Below, piece after piece: positions 40,816-42,967 of a stretch of DNA of 47,637 bases. Origin of the DNA: an uncultured Methanobrevibacter sp. (GTDB lineage: Archaea > Methanobacteriota > Methanobacteria > Methanobacteriales > Methanobacteriaceae); the NCBI RefSeq assembly GCF_905235195.1, contig NZ_CAJOKH010000028.1:1-47637 (forward strand). The letters run 5' to 3'. Within the stretch, counting starts at the first letter, position 1. The number at the start of each line of letters is the position of its first letter. Under the pieces are notes generated by a model that saw nothing but the letters and a program-made list of their open reading frames with translations, did not search any database and had not been told where the DNA came from. The translations under genes were made by a program, and so were the position numbers.

Positions 40816-42639
40816 TTAGTTTATAAATGAAACATATCTTTGTTGAGATAATACTTTTGCCATATTTTGAAGTTTCATTGCAGAAGAGGGGTATCTTGCA
40901 TTTTCAGTTTTAATTTTAAAGTTTTTAGGGTTTTCATTGTTTTCTCTATTATTTAAGCAATTATTAAATAATTTTATTAATACATCGCCTATTGCCTTTT
41001 CAGAACCATGTAATTTTGGAAGTATTTTTTGCTTTATTTGCGCATCAAAATATCTTTGCCAGTTATTCCATTCTGTAGGGGTTTTTTCATATTTCCATGA
41101 TACAATCATAAATCTTAATATTTCATTGATGACTCTAAATCCAAAATCGAATCCAGAACTTTTAAGTGTTTTCTGAAATATTGTAAGTTCATTAGCCAAA
41201 ATATCCCATAAATTATTTCCATTATATGAGATATTAGATAATACTTCTTTTAATTCTTCAATATTTAAATCTGAAATATCAGAATCAATTAATGGTGATT
41301 GTAGATATTCAATATTTCCATTAAAGTCTTCTGTATTTATATTATTATTCATATAATCTATTGCATCTAATGTATCAAATTCGATAGTATTGGCTCTATC
41401 AAGAACCTTAGGTGAAAACATATAGGTGGTTTCATCAACATTAACTGTACCTATTAGGAATATATTTTCTGGAAGTTTTATGGTTCTATCCTTCCCATAT
41501 AAAGGTATCTCCTCTTTACTTTCTATTGCAGATAGGAAATCTGCAAAATACCTTTCAACATGTGATAAATTCATTTCATCTAAAATTAAAAAATAAGGGT
41601 TTTTACTATCATTTTCTGCTTTTTGAATAAAATCATAAGCAGGTGTAGAGTGGTATTCATTTGTAATTACATTGTAATATCCAATAATATTAGTGTTATC
41701 TGTCCAGTTAGCTCCTACAGGAACAATAATGTATTTATCATCAGCATTTTTATGTGTTTCTATTTTTTCAACATTTTCATTTGGCTTATCACAATCCCAT
41801 TTTGGTTTAAAATTTTTAAAATCTTTATTATTAATTTTTAGTTTAAGTTCAACTTTTTGACCTTTTTTTTCAGTTAAAATTTCCATTATCTTGGTTGTTT
41901 TATTAAATTTAAATCTTGGGGTAATTCGTAATTTTGCAAATGATTTGATTCCGTCAATTATTATTTTACATGGGACAAATCCTTTTTTAAATGGTAAATA
42001 ATCGAAGATTTTCATATTTAACATCCAATATCCCTTTTCATAAGCAGATTTATTTGAGTTCTGTTCGAGTAGAACATAGTTGTCAATTTCGCTATAATCA
42101 TCTAATAGTTCTTTTATTCCTTGACAATTTATTTTAATATCAATTTCAGGAGTGTTTTTATTGTATCTGCCTTTTAAATTGTTTTCATTATATAAAGTTT
42201 TCATATGATTTTTTAAATCAACACTGTCATAAAATAATTGTATTCCTATCATCATTTGTCCTTCGGTAGGAGTATCATTAATTAATATGTCTAATGGTTC
42301 TTCGCAATGTTTTAGAGGAATATAATTTTCAAAATTGCTTTTTTCTAATGTCCAACCTTGATTACTCCATGAAGAATAATTTATTTTTCCTTTTATATTC
42401 ACATATTTTTCTTTATCTTCATTAGGTTCAATTTTTGGATCAATAATTTCTGAATTTATATATTTTGCAAATAATTGAGATAATTTTGTTTTTCCCGTTC
42501 CAGAATTTCCAGTTAATATTGTAAATGGCTTTACTTTTAGAGATAAAAGGTAATTTTCTATTAATTTTTTATCAAAATAGTAACCATTAGAAATTAGGTA
42601 CCTATAAAAAGAATAAGCATTTATATTTTTATTTGACAT
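40816..42639 (-). CDS. McrB-like AAA+ motor with a large insertion
   Basis: This AAA+ NTPase is the motor partner of the DUF2357 nuclease. The 607-residue protein has Walker A GNSGTGKT at residues 44-51 and Walker B FLILDEMNLSHVERYFADFL at 350-369. Sensor I is LIGTVNVDETTYMFSPKVLDRAN. Unlike classical McrB, there is almost no N-terminal DNA-reading domain. About 230 residues (roughly 70-300) are inserted between Walker A and the VPVGANWTDNTNIIGYYN segment that normally leads to Walker B. The insertion may be the recognition domain. The ATG follows AGGTAGGG. A TATA box and an inverted repeat lie directly upstream. Confidence 0.88.
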   Translation of the reverse strand: MSNKNINAYSFYRYLISNGYYFDKKLIENYLLSLKVKPFTILTGNSGTGKTKLSQLFAKYINSEIIDPKIEPNEDKEKYVNIKGKINYSSWSNQGWTLEKSNFENYIPLKHCEEPLDILINDTPTEGQMMIGIQLFYDSVDLKNHMKTLYNENNLKGRYNKNTPEIDIKINCQGIKELLDDYSEIDNYVLLEQNSNKSAYEKGYWMLNMKIFDYLPFKKGFVPCKIIIDGIKSFAKLRITPRFKFNKTTKIMEILTEKKGQKVELKLKINNKDFKNFKPKWDCDKPNENVEKIETHKNADDKYIIVPVGANWTDNTNIIGYYNVITNEYHSTPAYDFIQKAENDSKNPYFLILDEMNLSHVERYFADFLSAIESKEEIPLYGKDRTIKLPENIFLIGTVNVDETTYMFSPKVLDRANTIEFDTLDAIDYMNNNINTEDFNGNIEYLQSPLIDSDISDLNIEELKEVLSNISYNGNNLWDILANELTIFQKTLKSSGFDFGFRVINEILRFMIVSWKYEKTPTEWNNWQRYFDAQIKQKILPKLHGSEKAIGDVLIKLFNNCLNNRENNENPKNFKIKTENARYPSSAMKLQNMAKVLSQQRYVSFIN

Positions 42640-42656
42640 ATAGACCCTACCTACAG

Positions 42657-42676
42657 AAATTGTATTACTACAATTT
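42657..42676. promoter_or_regulatory. Perfect inverted repeat next to the mcrB TATA box
   Basis: AAATTGTA and TACAATTT are perfect 8-bp arms around a 4-bp centre. The repeat touches the TATA box at 42676 and extends toward the start codon, covering roughly -25 to -5 relative to an expected transcription start near 42652-42655. A repressor bound here would block the preinitiation complex. The operator role is inferred from position and symmetry. Confidence 0.55.
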
Positions 42677-42685
42677 TTATATAAA
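42676..42685 (-). promoter_or_regulatory. TATA box of the McrBC-like operon
   Basis: TTTATATAAA is a close match to the archaeal TATA consensus. It is centred about 41 bp before the mcrB start codon, leaving room for a short leader carrying the AGGTAGGG ribosome-binding site. Confidence 0.6.
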
Positions 42686-42796
42686 CATCTATATAAAAAA
42701 TGGCTTTTTTATAAGAATTAAAGGAGTATGAATAGTTTTTTTAAAAAATTATAAGAATTGCTCTTTCTATTTGATTAAAGAAATAATATTTATATA

Positions 42797-42850
42797 GATC
42801 TATTATAAGATCAATAGATCTTCTTAGATCATATTAAGATTTTATAGATC
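42797..42850. repeat. Cluster of five GATC sites upstream of the McrBC-like operon
   Basis: GATC occurs at 42797, 42809, 42817, 42827 and 42847, each within an AGATC context and two as TAGATCTA. Five sites in 54 bp is far above expectation for DNA this A/T-rich. The cluster lies 160-210 bp upstream of mcrB. It could be a binding array or a methylation-sensitive control site. Confidence 0.5.
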
Positions 42851-42967
42851 TAATGTTTCCAATTAGACAATAAAAACATAATTTTTGATGGTATAAAATA
42901 AGGTTTCTACTTATTTAAAAAAAGTTTTTTTTAATACATAATTGTTTTATTTAATTGAGTCTAATGG

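Follow-up and report, generated by a model that had tools for sequence, protein, structure and literature searches.

The window analysed here, a stretch of 47,637 nucleotides from an uncultured Methanobrevibacter sp., carries on its minus strand the genes for an McrB-like AAA protein and for an McrC-like partner that combines DUF2357 with a PD-(D/E)xK nuclease domain (Table 1). Their arrangement in one operon is that of McrBC Type IV restriction systems. PADLOC assigns the McrB-like protein to PDC-M26A and returns no match for its partner. At the GTPase signature the McrB-like protein reads N-V-D-E by eye, which is of the NxD type. Among 19 McrBC loci compared, a NUDIX gene recurs as a neighbour in 12 and a PLD-helicase gene in 11, and no regulator gene recurs beside the operons (frames of at least 60 codons were considered, and in several cases the contig stops close to the operon). 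In the genome of the closest relative, G002, a MarR-family gene (L062:323-751) is found 4.2 kb upstream, with several other genes in between.

Table 1. Features of the McrBC-like operon and its promoter in the window
Feature	Position	Strand	Basis
McrC-like DUF2357 and PDDEXK_7 nuclease, 625 aa	38930..40807	-	DUF2357 E 6.6e-49, PDDEXK_7 E 1.7e-33 (Pfam)
McrB-like AAA protein, 607 aa, with insert of ~230 residues after Walker A (placed by eye)	40816..42639	-	AAA_5 E 3.1e-5
Transcription start (predicted)	42654..42654	-	TATA spacing rule (PMC4158304, partial text)
Palindrome AAATTGTA-TTAC-TACAATTT	42657..42676	.	complete only in G000 (the window's own genome) and G002 among 24 aligned promoters
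Downstream part of the module, TTGTAGTAAT (TTGTATTAAT in the majority of relatives), containing part of one palindrome arm	42664..42673	-	promoter alignments and model match
Whole conserved module as matched by independent model R1	42664..42704	-	E 1.9e-5 in window, E 0.0019 in genome
Second perfect inverted repeat TTTTTATATA-N6-TATATAAAAA, A/T-only arms, across the TATA box	42674..42699	.	inverted-repeat search
TATA box TTTATATA of the McrB operon	42678..42685	-	aligns with TATATA stretch of relatives
Upstream part of the module, CATTTTTTATATA (CATTTTTTAATA in the majority of relatives)	42690..42702	-	promoter alignments and model match

Directly upstream of the operon, a preliminary description had reported an operator-like inverted repeat touching the TATA box. 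Direct reading of the sequence bears out the repeat in both letters and coordinates: two perfect arms, AAATTGTA (42657-42664) and TACAATTT (42669-42676), enclose TTAC (42665-42668), and the contact with the decamer TTTATATAAA (42676-42685) is an overlap of a single base. The start of transcription is predicted by arithmetic at a T/G step near 42654, with the centre of the TATA box 26-27 bp upstream, which is the spacing rule given for archaeal promoters (PMC4158304, partial text). Relative to this predicted start, the palindrome would extend from about -22 to -3, and a leader of 15 nt would separate the start from the ATG at 42639. The dyad would thus occupy the zone between TATA and start, as is expected of a repressor operator. 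The promoter of the window holds two further perfect repeats besides the palindrome, at 42674-42699 and 42692-42713.

The repeat had also been described as unlikely to occur by chance, which proves to be only weakly true. When inverted repeats are defined by perfect arms of at least 8 bases and spacers of 0-10, the 47.6-kb window contains 65 of them, and the arms of 32 include G or C. In 2000 dinucleotide shuffles, the 328-bp intergenic region yielded one or more such repeats in 38.5 % of cases (18 % when G or C in the arm was required); for the 81-bp promoter taken alone the value was 6.8 % (2.9 % with G or C). With a spacer of exactly 4, the corresponding values were 3.5 % for the region and 0.6 % for the promoter. 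Given these shuffles and the repeat counts of the window, the palindrome is mildly unusual at its spot and ordinary for the region.

Copies of the palindrome elsewhere do not form an apparent operator family. The window's own genome has a single exact copy of the 20-mer, and the 138 genomes of the family have five, namely in the window, in its G002 orthologue, twice in G016 and once in G029; the three copies outside the orthologous promoters compare with two for the same motif read backwards. The genome search proposed in the preliminary description, run with up to two mismatches, returned 23 copies in the window's genome (G000) against 18 for the reversed control. The other three genomes of the genus gave 14 (G003), 22 (G002) and 18 (G001) copies against 21, 21 and 23, so that there is overall no excess in the four. 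A repressor operator would be expected to recur at other promoters above chance; this palindrome does not, and its candidacy as a genome-wide operator was rejected on counts equal to the control.

A homologue of the McrB-like protein was found in 63 of the 138 family genomes at E <=0.001, many of the 63 being weak. Among 43 loci with a matched N-terminus, 24 were kept by eye as having non-coding, alignable upstream sequence: the window, G002 and 22 members of g5, another Methanobrevibacter-like genus. In most of the 19 excluded loci the promoter position is occupied by coding sequence or by an unrelated region, and none of the 19, as stored in short form, matches the broader promoter model R2 (introduced below) at E <=0.1. 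The palindrome is complete in only two of the 24 aligned promoters, those of the window and G002. In the remaining 22, the arms pair at a mean of 1.7 of 8 positions, while 21 retain TATATA and 14 the AAATTGTA arm. Dyad conservation, as it would be expected of a repressor operator, is therefore not seen, and the pattern is the one that the preliminary description had itself named as evidence against its proposal, i.e. loss of the repeat with retention of the TATA box. Conservation follows TATA, TGTATTAAT and the upstream ATTTTTTAATA block rather than both arms, which, together with the absence of genome enrichment, argues against the palindrome as a functional unit. Different inverted repeats are present further down in the g5 promoters: one of some kind (arms of at least 6) occurs in 11 of 22, and eight of the 22 (L049, L063, L067, L068, L070, L074, L076 and L054) have a repeat of the ATGAAA..TTTCAT type close to the predicted start. 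Words resembling AAATTG were also seen by eye to recur about every 19 bp in g5 promoters.

Comparison of the window with G002 indicates that the promoter is constrained in the window's genus too, since a run of 82 identical bp takes in the TATA box together with the entire palindrome in a 340-column intergenic alignment of 87 % identity, while 24 of 146 fourfold-degenerate sites of the gene (16 %) differ. A run of this kind was reached in 16 of 200000 shuffles of the matches. The arms are not singled out by this comparison, because everything around them is equally invariant. Further upstream, at 42797-42853 (140-200 bp above the predicted start), the window contains five GATC sites in 57 bp, out of 66 in the whole window; the Poisson probability of such a cluster is 2e-8 for the given stretch and about 1e-4 when the choice of stretch is allowed for. 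Six GATC sites were counted by eye in the aligned stretch of G002, and the 24 upstream stretches of 200 bp hold 24 sites in all.

The constrained element of these promoters is a core-promoter module of ~37 bp, in which ATTTTTTAATA is followed after about 8 bp by TATATA and then by TGTATTAAT. In the alignment of the 24 promoters, conservation is confined to a block of only about 45 bp, the sequence above it having diverged and the leader below it being variable. The 21 g5 promoters reach a mean column identity of 80 %, with 20 invariant columns and a consensus that includes GATCGnCATTTTTTAATATnnGTTTATATATAAATTGTATTAATTA. The spaced pattern ATTTTTTAATA-N(5-10)-TATATA-N(2-7)-GTATTAAT, which was derived from these same promoters, has 14 matches in the 138 genomes. 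Each of these spans 37 bp despite the variable spacers allowed, and each directly precedes an McrB homologue in the same orientation. The shorter pattern TATAWAAATTGTANTAAT has 16 matches, 12 of them in an McrB promoter and 4 elsewhere, and matches to the spaced pattern with up to three mismatches mix with chance. The possibility that the module is a general promoter feature was rejected because its exact spaced pattern was matched in the 138 genomes solely before the McrB-type operon. The promoter zone recognized in the preliminary description is thus real, its sequence being under constraint and serving the McrBC-like operon.

A conserved core promoter is not remarkable in itself, because the promoters of the ArsA-type ATPase gene of the window are likewise conserved, and part of the conservation is ordinary core-promoter constraint. 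In 12 g5 promoters of that gene the best 40 columns reach 0.82, compared with 0.87-0.89 in three 12-sequence samples of McrB promoters, and columns conserved at >=95 % number 20 in the ArsA set and 38, 25 and 20 in the three McrB samples. The ArsA-type promoters of g5 genomes (upstream of 36808 in the window; L193-L203) have a conserved TATA-like stretch of their own, and several of them contain a GTTAC..GTAAC-like repeat. The notable feature of the McrB module is its occurrence before non-homologous operons.

This occurrence emerged from genome scans with R1, a sequence-only model built from the 21 g5 promoters with the window's genus left out. R1 recovers the promoter of the window independently, as its one match there (Table 1). 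Matches in the window's genus are weak, at 19-20 bits (G000 E 0.0019, G002 E 0.0027). In 137 genomes, scored at 41 candidates per genome and with rough E-values, the 23 matches at E <=1.4e-5 all precede defence genes and comprise 20 training promoters and three others (G128, G131 and G085); weaker matches are mixed. The best 21 (E <=5.6e-9) are McrB promoters, namely the 20 training sequences and that of G128, which has an McrB of the MrcB_N type. At E <=0.003 there are 12 non-training matches, of which seven, in G128, G131, G085, G138, G000, G002 and G115, precede defence genes (E 8.8e-13 to 0.0027), and the other five (G090:C68, G087:C121, G116:C21, G001:C1 and G031:C5) lie inside open frames or overlap frame ends.

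The matches in G131 (E 8.3e-8), G085 (1.4e-5) and G115 (0.0027) precede operons that start with a D12 adenine methylase (L234, L235 and L236). In G085 (L235), for which the families are named, the methylase is followed by PbeA-like and PbeC-like genes, two proteins without a family match and a NUDIX gene, and the frames of G131 and G115 resemble this operon by eye. Within the stretch covered, all three operons end by eye with a PLD-helicase-like frame, as found behind McrBC operons. By pairwise comparison, the insert after Walker A in the window's McrB-like protein resembles a separate 318-aa protein of the Dam/Pbe-like operon (L235:6038-6991, E 6e-8). The match in G138 (L237, E 0.0017), a partial one over model positions 2-40, precedes a 95-aa frame and then DrmA-like and DrmE-like genes, behind which a short McrB-like open frame and a gene of the phage-integrase family were noted.

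A broader model, R2, was trained on all these promoters; its 27 matches at E <=1.1e-4 stand apart and all belong to the same operons, a separation that holds by construction. The next match, G018:C11 (1.6e-4), was viewed as open frames only. McrB homologues outside the 24 (in other genera, in other families of the same order, and in g5 with coding sequence upstream) showed no module at E <=0.1 in loci with limited upstream sequence, the exceptions in this search being L078, which records the L054 promoter a second time, and L063, one of the 24, with a weak partial match. Viral copies of the module were also considered and rejected: 42 IMG/VR stretches fit a loose pattern, and none scores with R2 at E <=0.1.

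The module is conserved in sequence and spacing, is specific to defence operons at high score and stands before differing genes. The reading that we favour, with moderate confidence, is that this core-promoter module (ATTTTTTAATA block, TATA, TGTATTAAT block) drives defence operons in Methanobrevibacter-like archaea and is kept while the genes behind it change, probably being read by a factor encoded elsewhere. The module at its nearly fixed spacing, and not the palindrome, would then be what selection keeps, and the genes behind it would have been exchanged, to give McrBC of several kinds, Dam/PbeA/PbeC-like and DrmA/DrmE-like sets. The palindrome may be an innovation of the window's genus, in which differing DNA immediately below the shared half-site happens to supply the rest of an inverted repeat. 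The putative factor would read the blocks flanking TATA together with TBP/TFB and so set the activity of the operon. Its mode would more likely be blocking of the TATA-to-start zone than activation, because the archaeal repressors TrmBL1/Tgr, MDR1 and Phr act in that zone and activators bind upstream (PMC4158304, partial text); the upstream position of the ATTTTTTAATA block is compatible with activation.

An alternative, which we regard as possible though less probable than a regulated module, is a core promoter that is only strong and constitutive: BRE, TATA and the AT-rich start region would be retained for the needs of transcription, there would be no dedicated regulator, and the A/T-rich sequence would give rise to the palindrome as a by-product. 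The abundance of perfect inverted repeats in the window and in the intergenic shuffles is in its favour, as is the conservation of the ArsA promoters; it accounts poorly for two sequence-specific flanking blocks at fixed spacing and for the confinement of the spaced pattern, though drawn from these operons, to their promoters in 138 genomes, which therefore appear to be more than generic. It is unlikely that the palindrome is a lineage-specific operator at which a trans-acting dimeric repressor, bound between TATA and start, silences the nuclease operon. Its perfect arms, its position, which is like that of known archaeal repressor sites (PMC4158304, partial text), and its identity in G002, within the 82-bp invariant block despite the divergence at fourfold sites, are consistent with such a role, and so is the outcome of a Pfam search that detected no DNA-binding regulator among the 10 window proteins tested between 30.6 and 46.5 kb. 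The latter agrees with the earlier suggestion that the repressor is not encoded beside the operon; the accompanying suggestion that the palindrome is its operator is unsupported, given its presence in 2 of 24 promoters and the lack of genome enrichment. With near copies no more frequent than the control in the four genomes of the genus, exact copies elsewhere equally scarce, pairing lost in most orthologues and arms that do not stand out in G002, the operator reading is weak, failing two of its own tests. The surrounding promoter is a conserved module of moderate interest.

The promoters may also be similar because a modular operon descends from a common ancestor, and not because they form a true regulon, and the NUDIX and PLD-helicase-like frames that the three Dam/Pbe-like operons share with McrBC operons count toward this. 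Recent exchange of operons by recombination, with the conserved block as a recombination boundary and not a selected element, seems very unlikely; operon content does vary between a similar promoter and the shared NUDIX and PLD-helicase-like genes, but the block is only about 45 bp long, and recent exchange is disfavoured because divergence is seen immediately above the block as well as in the coding region that follows it (about 54-64 % identity between full-length g5 homologues). A wider form of the favoured reading is speculative and rather improbable: a host-encoded archaeal factor would control unrelated defence systems (McrBC, Dam/Pbe-like and DISARM-like) through one module, newly exchanged effectors would come under the same control, and the GATC sites near several of these promoters might add sensitivity to adenine methylation.

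To our knowledge, the control of costly defence nucleases in archaea has been little studied. A promoter that is kept while the defence genes change provides a starting point for identifying the regulator, and the proposed palindrome operator becomes a modest, testable side question. No description of the promoter module was found in searches of the literature on DUF2357/McrB, on Methanobrevibacter McrBC, defence or DISARM promoters, on PbeABCD, on archaeal repressors overlapping TATA or on start-site maps of Methanobrevibacter.

Like the operators of TrmBL1/Tgr, MDR1 and Phr, the palindrome is an inverted repeat between TATA and the predicted start, where a bound protein would hinder RNA polymerase (PMC4158304, partial text); unlike them, it is missing in most orthologues, shows no genomic excess over the control and has only a putative regulator. 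The operon itself resembles McrBC Type IV restriction in its McrB AAA protein and DUF2357-PD-(D/E)xK McrC, the restriction of modified DNA being putative here; McrBC systems with the NxD signature have already been published, and the window's McrB shares N-V-D-E with that branch and carries in addition the large insert after Walker A (PMC11090510, partial text). The L235 operon, under the same module, resembles PbeABCD in its PbeA- and PbeC-like genes and differs in starting with a D12 adenine methylase and in that PbeB and PbeD were not identified; many solitary PbeAC pairs are already reported to have candidate base-modifying genes nearby (PMC6459918, partial text). In archaeal viruses, a consensus promoter has been described before unlike early and anti-defence genes (PMC11065993, partial text). 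In contrast to that consensus, the present module, known from sequence alone, lies in host chromosomes before defence operons, and no Aca-like regulator was found. The two are alike in that one promoter sequence stands before unlike defence-related genes and is more conserved than the genes themselves, and further defence operons may be found by their promoter, as has been done for the anti-defence genes of archaeal viruses (PMC11065993, partial text).
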